NCBI RefSeq assembly: GCF_004765785.1
Contig: NZ_SBIT01000008.1
Location: 62,001-126,000 of the forward strand
Length of the DNA stretch: 64,000 nucleotides
Direction: 5' to 3'
DNA from: Halorussus ruber
GTDB taxonomy: Archaea > Halobacteriota > Halobacteria > Halobacteriales > Haladaptataceae
Shown: piece by piece, positions 2,749 through 44,655 of the stretch
How positions within the stretch are numbered: the stretch's first letter is position 1
Layout: each line of letters opens with the position of its first letter
Position numbers and translations under genes: made by a program
Notes under the pieces: model-generated
What the model saw: only the letters and a program-made list of their open reading frames with translations
The model's database searches: none
Told to the model about the DNA's origin: nothing

Positions 2749-2757
2749 TATAAAATA
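2749..2757 (+). promoter_or_regulatory. TATA box of candidate structured RNA
   Basis: TATAAAATA lies in a very AT-rich stretch (2700-2760). At the usual archaeal distance of about 27 bases, transcription would start near 2779, just before the first of a chain of helices. No start codon with a plausible gene follows on this strand, so the box would serve a non-coding RNA. Inference from spacing only. Confidence 0.4.
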
Positions 2758-2778
2758 TAGGGGTTGTAGGGCTACTAT

Positions 2779-3045
2779 TTGCTGAAAACGGCCGATTCCC
2801 CGGCTATCGTAACCTTTAGGATGGAGAAGGTGGTAACAAGAGATGGACAACCACCTCACCACCATCCGCGTTGTCCACGCATCCAACAACCTGAAAATGG
2901 TTTAAAACTAACCGTCACCACCCGATAACAGCCGCTTTACCACCGGCTGTCCGACGAGTGAGCGGCCGCTTTACCACCGGCCGTAATGACGGTTGGCTTC
3001 CAAACCTTTCTGTTGTCACACAATAACTACTATTGTAGGTTTATT
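2779..3045 (+). ncRNA. Candidate structured RNA with twin identical-loop hairpins
   Basis: Pairings read from sequence: 2788-2794 with 2801-2810 (three-base bulge); 2812-2816 with 2827-2831; 2844-2851 with 2870-2877 (8 bp); a closing stem 2908-2917 with 2987-2996 (10 bp, one T.G) that encloses two hairpins, 2928-2934/2944-2950 and 2962-2968/2978-2984. Both enclosed hairpins have the same loop, CTTTACCAC, on different stems. A hairpin at 3020-3025/3031-3036 followed by a T-rich run looks like a terminator. TYACCACC occurs four times (in both twin hairpins and near 2856 and 2915), and a complementary GGTGGTAA sits at 2829-2836, so alternative pairing is possible. The two wobble pairs are G.U only if the plus strand is the RNA. 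It could instead be the 3' untranslated part of the small minus-strand gene at 3148-3351. It matches no RNA I know (not RNase P, 7S or rRNA). No gene is seen in 2628-3147. Confidence 0.5.
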
Positions 3046-3147
3046 CTTATAAATCAGATAGGACCTTAAACGGCCGAAAAAGAGCATCAGTCAAAAATAT
3101 ACGAATCTATGGAGTTGTACCGCTTCAAAGAGCGGTGCGGACCTACC

Positions 3148-3351
3148 TTACTTCGTTTTCACGTCCTTCGGGCGGTCGGCTTCTTTCGACCGGGTGTGCG
3201 CTACTACGAAGCCGAGTACCATGCTCGACCCGCAGATTATCACGCCTGCGGCGGCAACCCAAGGGTTGCCGCCCAGAAGACCCGTTCTTATCAACTCTCC
3301 TCCGACGAGAACCCCCATACCAAGGGGGTCCGGATTGATGTTGGCTTCCAT
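3148..3351 (-). CDS. Small single-span membrane protein, function unknown
   Basis: 67 residues from an ATG at 3349-3351, preceded by an AAAGGT ribosome-binding-like sequence six to eight bases upstream. The protein has a Gly-rich amphipathic N-terminal half, one hydrophobic segment of about 20 residues (AAAGVIICGSSMVLGFVVA, roughly residues 34-52), and a short charged tail rich in Lys, Arg and Asp. It is far less acidic than its neighbours and lies in an AT-rich islet, which suggests acquisition, for example from a virus or plasmid. A TATA-like TTTTTAACC on the minus strand at about 3504-3512 could drive it. I do not recognise a family. A coding shadow on the opposite strand exists, but the hydrophobic pattern and RBS favour this frame. 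Confidence 0.5.
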   Translation of the reverse strand: MEANINPDPLGMGVLVGGELIRTGLLGGNPWVAAAGVIICGSSMVLGFVVAHTRSKEADRPKDVKTK

Positions 3352-3661
3352 TTACCTTTCTGAGAAACACGCAGGCTACCAAACCCACATGCGCCTCCAT
3401 AGTTAGGAGACTCGCGCCAGCAAAACATCAGTAGTCAACCCTCTCTTCGATTAGAGCACAGAGAGTCCATCTCATAGACGCTGTACTTTCATTCTAATCC
3501 AAAGGTTAAAAACATTCGTCACGCGCATCGAAACTCACTATTGAAAGCGTACACCGTAATAAACGGGCAAATAATCAATCCTGCCGCAACCAATGAAATA
3601 GAGTTTACATAAATATAATTGTATTAATAGGGGATGAAAACAATTATTAAACAAACAAATC
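3352..3661. other. AT-rich intergenic stretch, no gene seen
   Basis: 310 bases between the small membrane protein and the Rsm22-like gene. It is markedly AT-rich from about 3480, with a minus-strand TATA-like sequence near 3504-3512. T-rich sequence on the minus strand at about 3600-3660 probably ends transcription of the Rsm22-like gene. I see no other structure. Confidence 0.5.
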
Positions 3662-30965: not shown

Positions 30966-31058
30966 GCAATCCACCGGGATTCGCTCGGTGGTGCTTTCTA
31001 TCGAGGATTTTCCGGTGATTCATCTGTCGGGAAGAGTCTGTGGAACTTCCATCAGTAG

Positions 31059-31167
31059 GCGCTCAATTGACCAACCACCAGCAGACGCTTGACTGCCCAA
31101 ACCGCGGTTTGGGTGGACGAAAGGGGCCGCCCGGTCGTGCCCGGAGGGCTTGGTCGTTTCAGCGACC
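31059..31167 (+). repeat. Family 1 palindromic element, copy 6 (truncated)
   Basis: The leader (from about 31061, GCTCAATTGACCAACCACC) and the 5' outer arm (31119-31137) are kept. A small side hairpin GCCC(GGA)GGGC lies near 31139-31149. Then GGTCG(TTTCAG)CGACC appears in place of the whole inner domain and 3' arm. A 16-base palindrome CCAAACCGCGGTTTGG lies in the leader at 31097-31112. The sequence becomes AT-rich within 40 bases and the NdpA-like gene follows. No gene is seen in 30966-31303. Confidence 0.7.
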
Positions 31168-31303
31168 TCTCACCGTCTTTTCCGGCGAACTTGTGGTAGA
31201 GAATTCTTACATAAATGAGCGGTTTGAACGAGAAAATAGAGTACTAGCAATGGTTCTATTCAATATCGATATTATTAATAGATTGCATTTATTAGGTTCA
31301 TAT

Positions 31304-32350
31304 ATGAGTTCTGAGCGAGCCAGAACGGTTGATATTGATGTTCATCGGCTAGCGTATGGTCCAGTCGGTGGTGAAACAGCAGGTACAATAAAAGAAGAAA
31401 CCTCTATCGAAGATTCAGAAGAAGTCCTTAACCATTTCAGGTATTATATTGAGGACATTGTGATGAAAGGGGACATCACAAAGGTGACTCATGGTTCATA
31501 CGGGTCGGAATCAGAATTCAAAAACAAATTAGAAAAAGCACGTAATACTACTGATGACGAAGAATTCCGTACTACTCTTGTAGGATGGGCAGAAGACTTA
31601 AACGGAAAAATAACTGGGAGTGCTAGTGAGGGAAGTCTTCTAGCAGCACAAGCAACCCTGAGTGGGGGAAACATCCCGAATGCGCCATTAGAGACACTCA
31701 TCCTACTGAAACTAGATACAGAAGATGCTGTTCGTTTGTTCCAATCTGAAGACGGGATGGATGTTATTCCCCAGAACAGGGCATATCCCTCCCCAAGTCA
31801 AATTCAAAAGGCCGCTATCTACCCCGGAGAAGAAATACCGCCACATTCGAAAGAGGGTGATATCAAAATCTACCAGTCAAGTGACTCGGACTACTTCGTA
31901 GAGTTCCTTCAGTGCTCAACTCTACAACAGTCTAGTCTTGAGCAGGCACGAACTGCTCTTACGAAGGCTGAAGGTCTGGTTAAGGAATCTGTGGATAGAG
32001 AATTTGATCAGAGCGACTTCACCGAAATCATTTCTGAAGCGGAGACTGGAGGAGAACTCACTCCTCAAAGTATTGGAACTGCTTTGGAAAAGAACTCTGA
32101 TGGAAACATTGATCAACAAGAGGTAGTTGAAAAGTTTAAAGAAGATAGCCGATTGCAACAGTTGGAAATTGATGCAGACGATTTACCAAAGAAAACTAAA
32201 CTCACGGTTCAAAGGAATGGTCGGGAAATCACCATAAAGTATCCCTCGTCTGTATCCTCAAGCGTGGAAAAAATCGACGGCGAAGACGGAGAGGATGACA
32301 AAATCGTAATTAGAGGGAATATCACTAATGAGGAGTACCTAGAGAAATAG
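31304..32350 (+). CDS. NdpA/YejK-like nucleoid-associated protein, AT-rich, probably acquired
   Basis: 348 residues from the ATG at 31304, chosen because ATTATTAATA (31271-31280) is centred 28 bases upstream and the length then matches the bacterial family (about 335). ATG 31250 gives 18 more residues. The central part, NAPLETLILLKLDTEDAVRL then PSPSQIQKAAIYPGE, and the end, KKTKLTVQRNGREITIKYP followed by IVIRGNI, match the layout of the 37-kDa nucleoid-associated proteins that bind nucleoid DNA. Codon use is AT-rich and the protein is less acidic than its neighbours, so it was probably gained by transfer. Such genes often travel with mobile or defence loci, but none is evident here. It stands alone beside a truncated repeat. 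Confidence 0.6.
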   Translation: MSSERARTVDIDVHRLAYGPVGGETAGTIKEETSIEDSEEVLNHFRYYIEDIVMKGDITKVTHGSYGSESEFKNKLEKARNTTDDEEFRTTLVGWAEDLNGKITGSASEGSLLAAQATLSGGNIPNAPLETLILLKLDTEDAVRLFQSEDGMDVIPQNRAYPSPSQIQKAAIYPGEEIPPHSKEGDIKIYQSSDSDYFVEFLQCSTLQQSSLEQARTALTKAEGLVKESVDREFDQSDFTEIISEAETGGELTPQSIGTALEKNSDGNIDQQEVVEKFKEDSRLQQLEIDADDLPKKTKLTVQRNGREITIKYPSSVSSSVEKIDGEDGEDDKIVIRGNITNEEYLEK

Positions 32351-32512
32351 GTCCCACATTGGTCTAATAGCTGGTCCTTTACAAGTACCTGTGAGTATCT
32401 ACATTTAATTGGGCCTAACCAAGTAGTCTGTCCGTTATCTCGCGGTAGCGTTTTCAACTTTAGACAAACCAAGAGAGAAATCCTTTTCCTCCACCCACAC
32501 AACCCTCCACAC

Positions 32513-32833
32513 ATGGACTGGCCGCACGACCCCGACGGCGAAGAAGGGAGCGAAGGCGGACGCAAGTACGGCATGGCGATTCTCGCCAAGAAACTCGACG
32601 ACGAGGAAGACTTCCCGCTGAAGAAGCAGGAGTTCGTCGAGGAGCACGCCGACGAGCCGATTCGCATCAACCACCAGCGCGTCGTCAGCGTCGGCGACAT
32701 CTTCGAGTACGTCGAGGGCGACGAGTTCGAGACCATCGTGGACTTCCACAAGGCGGTCGGCGCGGGAATGCGGAAGGGCGGCTTCTGGGACTACCACCCG
32801 CAGGGCGAGAACCCCGAGAAGAAGAGCGCCTGA
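32513..32833 (+). CDS. DUF5785-type conserved haloarchaeal protein
   Basis: 106 residues starting MDWPHDPDGEEGSEGGRKYG. The protein is strongly charged, with a helix LKKQEFVEEHADEPIRI, a central VSVGDIFEYVEGDEFETIVDFHKAVG and a C-terminal RKGGFWDYHPQGENPEKK. This is the pattern of the short, highly conserved haloarchaeal DUF5785 family, whose function is unknown. It is cytoplasmic. Codon use is normal for this genome, unlike the gene before it. Confidence 0.75.
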   Translation: MDWPHDPDGEEGSEGGRKYGMAILAKKLDDEEDFPLKKQEFVEEHADEPIRINHQRVVSVGDIFEYVEGDEFETIVDFHKAVGAGMRKGGFWDYHPQGENPEKKSA

Positions 32834-32978
32834 GCCGGTTCTCGCTGCGGATTTTTCTCGGACGGCTTCCGAAACCCTCGCGCGCAGAACCACGCGCGAG
32901 GGCAGGAGGTACGACTGGCGTCGAGATGCGATTTCTGTCGGCGCAAACGATTTACTTTCGTCTGGTGTACCAACGAAC

Positions 32979-33113
32979 ATGGTCGTCAAAACCGAGCGCG
33001 ACGAGATGACGTGGTACAAGTGCGAGGGGTGCGGGATGATGTTCGACGACGCCGAGGACGCCAAGCAACACGAGGCCAACTGCGACCACGAGGACCCCTC
33101 GTACATCCAGTAG
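32979..33113 (+). CDS. Very small zinc-finger protein (DUF7128-like)
   Basis: 44 residues from the ATG at 32979; the stop is TAG at 33111-33113. The sequence is YKCEGCGMMFDDAEDAKQHEANC, a C-x2-C ... H-x3-C arrangement like a C2HC finger, with an acidic tail ending DPSYIQ. A TTTACTTT box lies at 32951-32958, some 28 bases before the ATG, which fits leaderless expression. Haloarchaea encode many such one-finger proteins; DNA, RNA or protein binding is possible, and the role is unknown. Confidence 0.75.
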   Translation: MVVKTERDEMTWYKCEGCGMMFDDAEDAKQHEANCDHEDPSYIQ

Positions 33114-40675: not shown

Positions 40676-41434
40676 CTAGTCGATGACGACGCGGTCGCCG
40701 TCCTCGCGGCACTCTTCGAGGGCGTGCTTGGCCGCCATTCCCGCGGTCTGGGGGTTCGCGGCCTGTCCGACGCCGACCTTCAGTTCGACCTCGACGGTGT
40801 CCTGCACGTGCCGGATGGCGTCCTGATACGCCTCCTCGTCCAAGTCGGGGCAGACCGCGATGACGTTGTCTCCTCCGACGAAAAAGGACAGGCCGTCGTG
40901 CGCGCGGCGGAAGTACCGCATCAGTTCGGCGTAGCCCTGCTCGATGTGGATGAACGAGTCGAAGGCGTTGAGCTGGTCGGTGTACTTCCCGGTGGCGTCG
41001 TTCACGTCGAAGTGCGCGATTTGCACGTCGTCGTCGGTGCGCTCGTCGGGGTCGAGCGTCGTGCCCCGCAGGATTTCGGTCCGGTCGGCCTCTTGGGCGC
41101 TCCCGGCGTCTTGGATGTGGTCGGTCGCGGCCGAGAGCGCCTCGACGGGACTCGGGTCCACGCCGACGCCGAAGCTGACGGTCACGGGGTAGCGGTTGCT
41201 CACCGACTCCTGTATCATGGCGTGGTCGGCCTCGTCCATCCCGTTCGTGACCGCAATCATGTTGTCGAACCGCGTGAAGAAGACGTAGCCCTCGCGGTTG
41301 CCGATAAGTTGCGAGAGGTCGGCGTACAGCCTCGACTGGAGGGTCTGAAGGTCCACTTCCCGGCGGGGTTCGGGCGTCACGGTCCACGGTCCGTAGTTGT
41401 CGATCTGAATCAGGGTGACCTGCGCGTTCGTCAC
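40676..41434 (-). CDS. gch3: GTP cyclohydrolase III
   Basis: 252 residues from a GTG at 41432-41434. Archaeal type III (IIa) enzyme of two ferredoxin/GGDEF-cyclase-like halves. It starts QVTLIQIDNYGPWTVTPEPRREVDLQ, then SQLIGNREGYVFFTRFDNMIAV, VTVSFGVGVDPSPVEALSAA, GLSFFVGGDNVIAV and LKVGVGQAANPQTAGMAAKHAL. It opens the ring of GTP to the formylamino-pyrimidine used for archaeal riboflavin and F420 synthesis. The start is supported by a TATA box 30 bases upstream, which lies inside a 14-base palindrome. Confidence 0.94.
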   Translation of the reverse strand: MTNAQVTLIQIDNYGPWTVTPEPRREVDLQTLQSRLYADLSQLIGNREGYVFFTRFDNMIAVTNGMDEADHAMIQESVSNRYPVTVSFGVGVDPSPVEALSAATDHIQDAGSAQEADRTEILRGTTLDPDERTDDDVQIAHFDVNDATGKYTDQLNAFDSFIHIEQGYAELMRYFRRAHDGLSFFVGGDNVIAVCPDLDEEAYQDAIRHVQDTVEVELKVGVGQAANPQTAGMAAKHALEECREDGDRVVID

Positions 41435-41457
41435 AGTTGGCCGTTGTTTTGTGGCGC

Positions 41458-41471
41458 TAGCTTATAAGCTA
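41458..41471 (-). promoter_or_regulatory. Perfect palindrome over the gch3 TATA box
   Basis: TAGCTTATAAGCTA is a perfect 14-base palindrome whose centre is the TATA-like CTTATAAG, about 30 bases before the gch3 start codon. It may be a regulator site over the promoter or simply a symmetric TATA box; the extension by three matching bases on each side favours the former. Confidence 0.4.
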
Positions 41472-41577
41472 TCCTAATTCTGGTAGTGTTTCCATAATTG
41501 GTAGGGTTTCTCTAAGCGATTTTACTTCCGCTCTGGTCTACTTACCTTTATTGCCTTCCCTTGACAACTGGCTGTTG

Positions 41578-42360
41578 ATGACACGATTTAAAATTGGAGT
41601 GGTGAAAAACCCGGAGGAGATACCCTCTCTACAAGAATTTGACGAGCGCGATGAAATTGCAGACTCTTCTTTTCCAATTCAAGAGGAAAGGGATGGAGAG
41701 TCTCTCCGTAAAGGCTTCAGAGACCCTTACTATGAGGACGGAGATGATGATACACAGGAGTTCTTTTACTTCGACTGTGTGATAGAGACGCTAGAGAAAA
41801 ATACGAGATTAGATGAGGACGGGAACGACTTAGAACATCATGTTCAGAGTCGAGATACAATGCACTTTATTTTGCTTCCTGATGGGCGATTTATCTACGA
41901 ATCTGCTAAAAATGTTGGACCGGGGAATGCATTGAGACTTCTCTTAGGTGAAATCCCCGAAATAGAGAGCGATATAACTATCCCTCACTCTGTACTCCGA
42001 AACTATTACTTTGATAAGGATGAGGTAAGCAAGGTGGTTGTTAATGGGATAGAATCTGATGATGATCCTGAAGAATATACAGAACCTGTTCGCTCAATTC
42101 TCCGAACGGGTCGAATGTTAGAAAGTACTACCTTCAATACTGGTGATTTTGAGACAAACCTAAGAGAATCTGATCTTGTCGGGAGCTTCATTGACCATGG
42201 GAACGTGAAGTTCATCAAGGGATCAGATGAAGATACAAATACAAAAGCCGTGTCTAACAATGGATGGGTAAGATTCTACCTTCCGACAGACCGGGATGTT
42301 GTTGAGCGTTCACGGTTAATACACCGAAAAGTTCGTCCGATCTTAGACGACGTGATCTAA
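41578..42360 (+). CDS. Unknown protein in AT-rich islet
   Basis: 260 residues from the ATG at 41578, with CTTTATTG (41546-41553) centred 28 bases upstream. A TTG at 41551 is a weaker choice. The protein is mixed alpha/beta with few hydrophobic runs: a start TRFKIGVVKNPEEIPSLQEF, an acidic EDGDDDTQEFFYFDCVIETLEK, SRDTMHFILLPDGRFIYESA and a C-terminal WVRFYLPTDRDVVERSRLI. No known domain is recognised. Codon use is much more AT-rich than in gch3 next to it, so it was probably acquired. It and the gene at 42908 flank a cold-shock gene of normal composition. Confidence 0.7.
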   Translation: MTRFKIGVVKNPEEIPSLQEFDERDEIADSSFPIQEERDGESLRKGFRDPYYEDGDDDTQEFFYFDCVIETLEKNTRLDEDGNDLEHHVQSRDTMHFILLPDGRFIYESAKNVGPGNALRLLLGEIPEIESDITIPHSVLRNYYFDKDEVSKVVVNGIESDDDPEEYTEPVRSILRTGRMLESTTFNTGDFETNLRESDLVGSFIDHGNVKFIKGSDEDTNTKAVSNNGWVRFYLPTDRDVVERSRLIHRKVRPILDDVI

Positions 42361-42572
42361 ATCCCTCCTCTTAGTATCCCGCCCAAATTGCCGATACGGA
42401 CAGAACTTGCCACGAAACCGCGGAATCAGGCGTGATTTGGAGACGAACTGACTGTACGGTCACACTCATCCGATATTCTCCGGAGTTCTGAATATATTTG
42501 TCCAAATAAGACCATATTTTCTATACGAACATCGGAATACTTATCCGTGAAACGTGCATCCGTCTAATTGCA

Positions 42573-42767
42573 ATGGCAGAAGGAACTGTTGACTTCTTCA
42601 ACGACACTGGCGGCTACGGTTTCATCGATACTGAGGACGCGGACGAAGACGTGTTCTTCCACATGGAAGACATCGGCGGCCCGGACCTCGAAGAGGGAAC
42701 TGAGGTAGAGTTCGAGATCGAGCAGGCGGACAAGGGTCCGCGCGCGACGAATCTTACGCGACTGTAA
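42573..42767 (+). CDS. cspA: Cold-shock domain protein
   Basis: 64 residues, a single OB-fold cold-shock domain. The RNA-binding motifs RNP1 ([10 protein letters not shown], usually KGFGFI) and RNP2 (DVFFHMED, usually VFVHFS) are present, but the basic residues are largely replaced by Asp/Glu, as in haloarchaeal CspA. It binds single-stranded RNA or DNA and acts as an RNA chaperone. The unusual context is between two AT-rich unknown genes. A strong hairpin terminator begins right after the stop codon. Confidence 0.93.
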
Positions 42768-42809
42768 ACGCGTCTTCAAGCCGCCGCGAGGCGGGTGAAC
42801 GCGCTTTTT
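42768..42809 (+). terminator. cspA terminator hairpin with GCGA tetraloop
   Basis: CCGCC (42781-42785) pairs with GGCGG (42790-42794) around GCGA, a GNRA loop. TTCA (42775-42778) pairs with TGAA (42796-42799), and CGCG (42769-42772) with CGCG (42800-42803). TTTTT follows. This looks like a bacterial-type intrinsic terminator, or a stabilising 3' end for the short mRNA. Confidence 0.6.
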
Positions 42810-42907
42810 CTGTGGAACTACGTTCGAAGAGCGACTGGTGTATCTGTTGTTGAATATGATGTGTTGGTAGGAAGCATTTATTATCTCGACAGATTATTTA
42901 TTCGAGC

Positions 42908-43783
42908 ATGGACATTAACGATGAATTGGTAGATCAAGTTGAAGAAGCCTTAGAAGAGCAGTCGAATTTCGAGTATACAACTGATGATGGTGAGGTTCAA
43001 TTCATCCGCGACACAATTGACGCTTTTGACAATATTTCAGAACACGATGGCTCTCAGGAGATTAGTACAAAAGTAAAGAAGATGCATAGCACACCGGAAG
43101 TTACTTTTTGTTGGCCGTATATCAATGATAGCCCGCGTGCGGAGTTTGCCGACCTTCTATTTATGGCCAACTTCTACGAAGATAATACTTTAGTTGAAAA
43201 GAGGGCGATGATTTCCCAGTCAAAGTTCACTCCTAAAAACGCTCGTGAAAACAAAAATAAGAAATGGAAAATTCAAATGAACCAATTTATGATTCTCCAC
43301 GAACTACCCAAGTTTAAGGTCACCAGTCCGGGAACGGGAGAGATTTTTCAGTTAGACTCAGAGACCCGGATGTTCACTAATTATAGCTTCGCCAGTAATT
43401 TCTTAAAGCCATTTTATTATTCAACCGAAAATTTTGTGGATGATATAAACACAGGGGCAAAGAAGCCTACTTTGAACCTTGAACACAAGTCCATGAATGG
43501 ATACAACTCTTCAAAGAGTATAATCAAACGGTTCCTGAAAAGGAAGATCGGAGAAGAGGTAACCGAAAATGCTGAACTAATCAGGTTTTTACAACACATC
43601 TATGAGAACTCGGACTCCTTTGGAAGAAGTGAAACCGAAAACGTAGTCGCTACTGACGGAGGTGAACAGGAATTACCTCCGGGTCCAGAAGCGGGTGCTA
43701 TTCAAATAAACATCGGAGAACTAGACGAATTCGAATCTCTCGATGAGGCAATAGAAAGGAGCGAAGGGTCAACCACGTTCTGA
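42908..43783 (+). CDS. Unknown protein in AT-rich islet, possible PD-(D/E)xK-like core
   Basis: 291 residues from the ATG at 42908, with TTTATTAT (42877-42884) centred 28 bases upstream (leaderless). A central segment EFADLLFMANFYED ... RAMISQSKFT has an Asp followed about 20 residues later by Q-S-K. This is the spacing and hydrophobic framing of the D ... (E/Q)xK part of PD-(D/E)xK nucleases. It is followed by KKWKIQMNQFMILHELPKFK, like the helix after such a core. This is suggestive only, and an upstream catalytic Glu is not certain. Ser/Asn-rich and Lys-rich parts differ from local proteins and the DNA is AT-rich, so transfer is likely. The family is not recognised. Confidence 0.65.
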   Translation: MDINDELVDQVEEALEEQSNFEYTTDDGEVQFIRDTIDAFDNISEHDGSQEISTKVKKMHSTPEVTFCWPYINDSPRAEFADLLFMANFYEDNTLVEKRAMISQSKFTPKNARENKNKKWKIQMNQFMILHELPKFKVTSPGTGEIFQLDSETRMFTNYSFASNFLKPFYYSTENFVDDINTGAKKPTLNLEHKSMNGYNSSKSIIKRFLKRKIGEEVTENAELIRFLQHIYENSDSFGRSETENVVATDGGEQELPPGPEAGAIQINIGELDEFESLDEAIERSEGSTTF

Positions 43784-43854
43784 ACTTTTCTATCCCCGTC
43801 ACCGGAAATCCGATTCCGAGAGATTCAAACCACAGTCTACCTTCCACCCCATCA

Positions 43855-44655
43855 ATGACTATCCCGTCGTTCGTCATCGGTATCGCGGGGGGAACCGGGG
43901 CCGGAAAGACGACGGTCGCCCGCGAAATCACCGAGGAGGTCGAAGACTCCGTGACGCGCATTCCGATGGACAACTACTACGAGGACCTGAGCCACCTCGA
44001 TTTCGAGGAGCGCACCGAGGTCAACTACGACCACCCCTCGGCGTTCGAGTGGGAACTCCTTCGGGAACACATGGACGCTCTCCTCTCGGGTCAGACCATC
44101 GAGATGCCCCAGTACGACTTCTCGGAACACAATCGCAAGGACGAGACCCGGACGGTCGAACCGACCGACGTGGTCGTGCTGGAGGGTATCTTCGCGCTCT
44201 ACGACGAGGAGGTCAACGAGATGCTCGACATTCAGGTCTACGTCGAGACCGACGCCGACGTGCGCATCCTCCGGCGCATCGAGCGCGACGTGGTGGACCG
44301 CGGCCGGGACTTGGAGGGCGTCATCGACCAGTACCTCTCGACGGTCAAACCGATGCACGAGCAGTTCGTCGCGCCGACGAAGAAGCACGCAGACCTCATC
44401 ATCCCCGAGGGCGCGAACGCCGTCGCGGTCAACCTGTTGGAGGAGAAGGTCCGGGCCGAGACCTACACCGACTCGGGGTCGGCGTGGACCCTCGGCGAGG
44501 AGGGCGTCGAGCGCGAGCAGAACGAGCGCCTCACCGTCACCGGTCCCGCCGCGACCGAGGCCGAACGCGAGAGCGACGGACGCCCGGACGGCGGGCGAGA
44601 GGGTCGAGACGCGGACTCGACCGACCGGCGGTGGAGCGACGAGCAATCGGAGTAG
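43855..44655 (+). CDS. udk: Uridine kinase
   Basis: 266 residues. The P-loop is IGIAGGTGAGKTTVARE (residues about 7-23), followed by the substrate region MDNYYEDLSHLDFEERTEVNYDHPSAFEWELL and VVVLEGIFALYDEEV (Walker B). The lid region IRILRRIERDVVDRGRDLEGVIDQYL is typical of the uridine/cytidine kinase family of nucleotide salvage. The last 55 residues are an acidic and Arg-rich tail (ERESDGRPDGGREGRDADSTD) absent from bacterial enzymes. A family 1 element follows the stop. Confidence 0.92.
   Translation: MTIPSFVIGIAGGTGAGKTTVAREITEEVEDSVTRIPMDNYYEDLSHLDFEERTEVNYDHPSAFEWELLREHMDALLSGQTIEMPQYDFSEHNRKDETRTVEPTDVVVLEGIFALYDEEVNEMLDIQVYVETDADVRILRRIERDVVDRGRDLEGVIDQYLSTVKPMHEQFVAPTKKHADLIIPEGANAVAVNLLEEKVRAETYTDSGSAWTLGEEGVEREQNERLTVTGPAATEAERESDGRPDGGREGRDADSTDRRWSDEQSE

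Follow-up and report, generated by a model that had tools for sequence, protein, structure and literature searches.

What is encoded at 2749-3045 of this 64,000-nucleotide stretch of Halorussus ruber DNA (hereafter the window), and on what does it act? The original prediction, made from the letters alone, was a new structured RNA in which two hairpins with the same loop sit inside a closing stem. We find that the structured element is genuine and encoded on the plus strand, and that a partner gene and an antisense tail, both missed in that prediction, explain it. The best reading, which on a small family (5 loci in 4 lineages) we consider likely, is a type I toxin–antitoxin-like module with an architecture resembling that of par(pAD1).

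Fold and conservation of the structured RNA

The elements originally described were found where they had been placed, among them the two same-loop hairpins and the closing stem P1 (2908-2917 with 2987-2996, plus strand), which in the window copy has 10 bp with one G.U. The 9-nt sequence CTTTACCAC occurs twice, at 2935-2943 and 2969-2977, forming the loops (CUUUACCAC) of plus-strand hairpins P3 (2928-2950) and P4 (2962-2984). The loops are identical, as claimed, but “different stems” overstated the case: the P3 and P4 stems are near copies, with one base differing within a 20-nt repeat. On the 5′ side, hairpin P0 pairs GGACAAC (2845-2851, plus strand) with GTTGTCC (2870-2876).

A scan of the window against Rfam at the gathering score returned tRNA alone and no family at the structured element, and a DNA search with the element found one weak second site, in the same genome. 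Across four related loci, P0, P1, P3, and P4 persist despite sequence change: 96% of alignment cells are paired, five pairs have changed on both sides (vs. 2.0 in shuffles), and slid structures, used as a control, were far worse than the proposed fold. Helices set by hand showed full pairing in every locus, the sole exception being one mismatch in the weaker P2. The stem of P0 is kept with other sequence in the homologues (e.g., AUGGACU/AGUCCAU), P1 has 8–10 bp whose sequence differs among three lineages, the P3 stem is kept at all five loci, and the P4 stem is kept via G-C/G-U/U-A changes. The fifth member, on a plasmid of Haladaptatus salinisoli, retains a hairpin CAGCCG-9 nt-CGGCUG and a 7-bp analogue of P1. 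The absence of an Rfam match, together with homologues that keep their stems by compensatory changes, supports the prediction that the structured RNA is new.

A covariance-model search, one of the checks originally proposed, gave strong matches (E 1e-23 to 1e-30) only at the four loci used to build the model, each of which adjoins the small ORF described below. On the plasmid member, model R1 picked up hairpin P3 alone, below significance. Weak matches in G004 (L059) and G366 (L056) both fall within coding DNA and were rejected as chance.

The long transcript and the TATA box at about 2750 of the original prediction did not hold up, since that box is not conserved. Alignment conservation among the four related loci instead sets in sharply at 2806-2820, at the plus-strand sequence ATCGTAACCTTTAGG, a BRE/TATA promoter-like box predicted from this conservation. 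It resembles a haloarchaeal promoter and probably places the RNA start near 2842. The small RNA, a proposed antisense regulator or antitoxin with four homologous loci and one diverged, is thus drawn at 2842-3014 on the plus strand and is probably about 170–200 nt long. Its 3′ end is uncertain and may reach a T-rich stretch at about 3030-3050.

A convergent gene for a small membrane protein

Convergent to the small RNA, on the minus strand, runs its partner, a 67-codon ORF (3148-3351) that is the only conserved small ORF nearby and the gene of the proposed toxin. Small RNA and small ORF form a unit present at five loci in four lineages and convergent at all of them, with two copies in this genome, one in each of two congeners, and a diverged one on a plasmid. 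A search with the small ORF yielded the paralogue in its own genome and relatives in 2 of the 17 further genomes of the genus; beside each, the structured RNA recurs in diverged form and in the same layout. The unit is patchy in the genus (3 of 18 genomes) and its chromosomal sites vary; one locus, beside ribB/hemL, is common to the two congeners.

The fifth member, a 70-aa ORF of G007, emerged from a profile search (E 6e-5), and a reverse search with it gave the known members as best non-self matches. Haladaptatus salinisoli has a protein identical to it, annotated as hypothetical, on its 17.6-kb plasmid NZ_CP085334.1. Searches of genome contigs, viral contigs, and phage sequences gave no further member. 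Weak protein matches (L075, L078, L092, and others) were for the most part generic membrane proteins or segments of longer polypeptides, and those scanned had no antisense tail above local background. Two of them (L078:1420-1638 and L092:1519-1788) are short proteins of haloarchaea that carry two hydrophobic stretches and weakly resemble the small protein; the surroundings of the former revealed no clear antisense tail, and inspection by eye revealed none at the latter.

Purifying selection was detected in frame 0 of the small ORF only (dN/dS 0.38–0.65) and not in its overlapping frames. In the structure model (pLDDT 74), residues 9-27 and 30-58 form a helical hairpin; the protein carries a single strong TM segment and its tail is basic. 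Family members have 67–70 aa and a KD 19-mer maximum of 1.9–2.3. Pfam and NCBIfam yielded no family for the protein, and the defence and virus families of PADLOC and PHROGs gave no profile match. As expected of a type I toxin, the product is a small hydrophobic membrane protein, its toxicity being our proposal; its length slightly exceeds that of most type I membrane toxins, which are generally <60 aa (PMC8309996).

Complementarity of the RNA tail to the start site

The 3′ strand of P1 continues into a plus-strand tail (GTTGGCTTCCA..ACCTTTCTG, 2992-3012) complementary to the partner mRNA at 3340-3362 (minus strand), where the start codon and the ribosome-binding region lie. In the DNA, GTTGGCTTCCA-AACCTTTCTG, directly 3′ of P1, recurs as GTTGGCTTCCA-TTTACCTTTCTG across the RBS and start codon of the convergent gene, with an exact 11-nt repeat between 2992-3002 and 3340-3350. 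These bases had been assigned to a local pairing of GGTTGG with CCAAACC that would open P1; that pairing is not conserved, and the bases belong to the antisense tail.

The cognate duplex of the window has an energy of –40.9 kcal/mol (z –7.2, 0 of 1000 shuffles), vs. –17.8 to –24.7 with the other lineages. Cognate duplexes over the loci lie between –34 and –43 kcal/mol. In a 5×5 matrix of tails and starts, same-lineage duplexes ranged from –34.5 to –46.9 kcal/mol and those between lineages were no better than –25.3; at the four related loci, the cognate duplex had z of –6 to –8.5 and was equalled in 0 of 1000 shuffles. Tail and target differ between lineages, yet match each other within each. 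As expected, the tails of the orthologous L031 and L032 cross-pair, and those of the two paralogues in this genome are orthogonal, as befits coexisting modules.

The uninterrupted helices measure 11–12 bp for the window and G022 and 17, 17, and 18 bp for the other three. In a scan of 53 control genes, helices reached 14 bp and the energies were just as low. The 11-bp helix of the window is by itself unexceptional in GC-rich DNA, because window genes scanned at random can reach 11–14 bp, and since scanned duplex energy is not specific, we place the weight on the fixed homologous position, the lineage specificity, and the five-fold recurrence. On these grounds, antisense pairing of the tail with the start site is well supported as a potential of the sequences. 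The RNA is complementary to the candidate toxin mRNA, as in type I systems, and the position of the tail over RBS and AUG suggests repression of the partner mRNA.

Hairpin loops and the mRNA leader

The small-ORF mRNA is predicted to start downstream of a BRE/TATA-like block (TGACGAA..TTTTTAA, 3504-3521, minus strand) kept in the four related loci. Its structured 5′ leader (3352-3483, minus strand) has about 131 nt, equal in length in the four related loci, and its own fold contains 10 pairs with compensatory change. An upstream ATG (3473-3475, minus strand), with equivalents in L030, L031, and L032, precedes the start of the small ORF by exactly 124 nt in all four related loci and stands just after the predicted mRNA start. 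In three of these loci, the frame that it opens extends into the small ORF, whereas in the window copy it stops after 15 codons.

Just upstream of the RBS, a leader hairpin (3368-3391, minus strand) carries the loop UUUGGUAG, able to kiss P3. This loop reads UGGUAG, UGGUAA, or GUAGU, and UGACU in the plasmid member, and the P3 loop, which becomes CACUAU or AGUCAC in homologues, covaries with it (UUACCA-UGGUAR, ACUAU-GUAGU, AGUCAC-GUGACU). A second mRNA hairpin, CCCCC-UUGGUAU-GGGGG, lies in the first codons (3311-3329, minus strand); its DNA is identical in all four related copies, third codon positions included. This hairpin (CCCCCUUGGUAUGGGGG) fits the P4 loop, its own loop having 5–6 bp of complementarity to the UACCA loops. 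Kissing with both the leader and the first-codon loops would account for the two identical loops in the RNA. The loop pairs were chosen after seeing the data, which makes the comparison post hoc and weak (chance about 2–15% for each match; 2/24 by permutation), and kissing of the UACCA loops of the RNA with the UGGUA loops of the mRNA is suggestive only.

Proposed mechanism and alternative explanations

In the proposed module, the minus-strand gene would be transcribed into an mRNA whose long leader is folded and which encodes a small hydrophobic membrane protein, while the plus-strand RNA would form a closed domain that presents two hairpin loops, with the tail held beside the closing stem. 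First contact would be made between the UACCA loops of the RNA and the UGGUA loops of the mRNA. P1 would next open and the tail, whose pairing potential is described above, would engage the start site, blocking translation of the membrane protein. Upon RNA decay or loss of the module, the protein would be made and, if the hypothetical toxicity is real, the membrane damaged or depolarised. Transcription of the module, pairing in the cell, the translation block, and toxicity are what we infer for a system that might serve in plasmid stabilisation or as a stress-response or abortive element.

The same antisense RNA might act as a translational repressor of a small membrane protein that is benign, such as a stress or envelope protein. 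All of the RNA evidence fits this equally, since nothing would look different if the antisense-controlled membrane protein were harmless, and two congeners have the ribB/hemL-side locus in common, as could be so for an ordinary gene. The very patchy spread within the genus, the copy on a small plasmid, and the variable chromosomal sites speak against it and for an addiction-type module, as does the tight control of so tiny a membrane protein by RNA; we judge the benign protein unlikely, though a serious contender.

Whether the structure could instead be a 3′-UTR or processed element of the minus-strand small-ORF transcript is a question of strand. The plus-strand fold (–86.6 kcal/mol, z –4.5) was matched in 0 of 200 shuffles, but a fold no less stable was obtained for the minus strand (z –5.3), so energy by itself cannot assign the strand. 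The plus strand, as originally predicted, is favoured because the conserved wobble pairs comprise five G.U vs. two A.C cells when read on that strand and because the antisense tail is sensible on the plus strand alone. A conserved promoter-like box also stands before the plus-strand RNA, and a minus-strand origin appears very improbable.

The original proposal of a two-state RNA switch and/or a mimic of the anti-Shine-Dalgarno sequence with broad action on ribosomes or mRNAs drew on TYACCACC, correctly noted four times on the plus strand and over-represented in the window (8 matches vs. 2.1 expected; 0 of 100 shuffles reached 8), on its complement GGTGGTAA at 2829-2836, and on TCACCACC, one base from the anti-SD, but it is barely credible, as GGTGGTAA precedes the point where the RNA probably begins and is missing from homologues, no anti-SD match is conserved, and the homologue loops turn into ACUAU or AGUCAC, not SD-related sequence, in step with the neighbouring mRNA loops.

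Relation to known systems

In par(pAD1), convergent RNAs cross direct repeats covering the toxin start, pairing is entered through a kissing loop, and the repeats are locus-specific (PMC7472228). The toxin–antitoxin-like module proposed here shares with par(pAD1)/Fst its convergent toxin mRNA and regulator RNA (RNA I and RNA II in Firmicutes), complementarity arising from direct DNA repeats of which one covers the protein start site, a proposed loop–loop first contact, poorly conserved repeats that would confer locus specificity, copies on plasmid and chromosome, and a small helical membrane protein with a charged C-terminal tail. It differs in having an archaeal host, a 67–70 aa helical-hairpin protein with no Fst sequence match found (vs. 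about 30–35 aa and a PXXXG motif in Fst/Ldr), and an elaborately folded RNA of about 170–200 nt (vs. about 40 nt for RNA II). The shared bidirectional intrinsic terminator with kissing loops that characterizes par(pAD1) was not seen by eye in the sequence; in place of terminator loops, the proposed kissing loops here are hairpins P3 and P4. With a protein unrelated by the searches made and no shared terminator seen, the module is not a member of the Fst family.

Like hok/sok, zorO/orzO, and other type I modules, whether encoded in trans or in cis, the unit combines a small hydrophobic protein, a long structured leader, and an adjoining RNA regulator, and the upstream frame overlapping the small ORF in three of four related loci resembles mok of mok/hok. 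Its arrangement and sequences differ from those of hok/sok and zorO/orzO, with no homology by any search made. Among archaeal RNAs, sRNA162 of Methanosarcina mazei and the asRNAs of Halobacterium act, or have been proposed to act, through antisense pairing at mRNA 5′ regions. The targets of sRNA162 are other mRNAs (PMC3510493), and the asRNAs reported from Halobacterium are those at type II modules (PMC6523106), so that in neither case is a small toxin paired with an RNA antitoxin.

A 2025 statement gives type I systems as known from Proteobacteria, Firmicutes, and Tenericutes only, with the authors' own cyanobacterial case the first outside these (PMC12390103). We found no archaeal type I system in the open-access papers searched; one may be reported elsewhere. 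We lean, if only somewhat, towards the broader claim that this is the first archaeal type I RNA-antitoxin/membrane-toxin module, which arose independently of the bacterial ones, is carried by haloarchaeal plasmids and chromosomes, and would use a two-point mechanism (paired kissing loops and an anti-start tail freed from the closing stem). If true, a par(pAD1) layout in archaea would show repeated origin of the arrangement, and haloarchaeal genetics would gain an RNA-regulated membrane toxin that is small and testable. A short membrane ORF, a convergent RNA, and a direct repeat at the start codon together make a recipe by which further modules could be sought in archaeal genomes, in which searches by homology see nothing.

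Genomic surroundings

The neighbours of the unit in the window are otherwise ordinary and include genes for an ATP-grasp protein and an Rsm22-like methyltransferase. A luciferase-like monooxygenase gene (Pfam Bac_luciferase) lies at 2-1227 on the minus strand. The regions 31000-33000 and 41000-44000 are AT-rich (45–53% GC vs. about 67%) and are possibly integrated elements.
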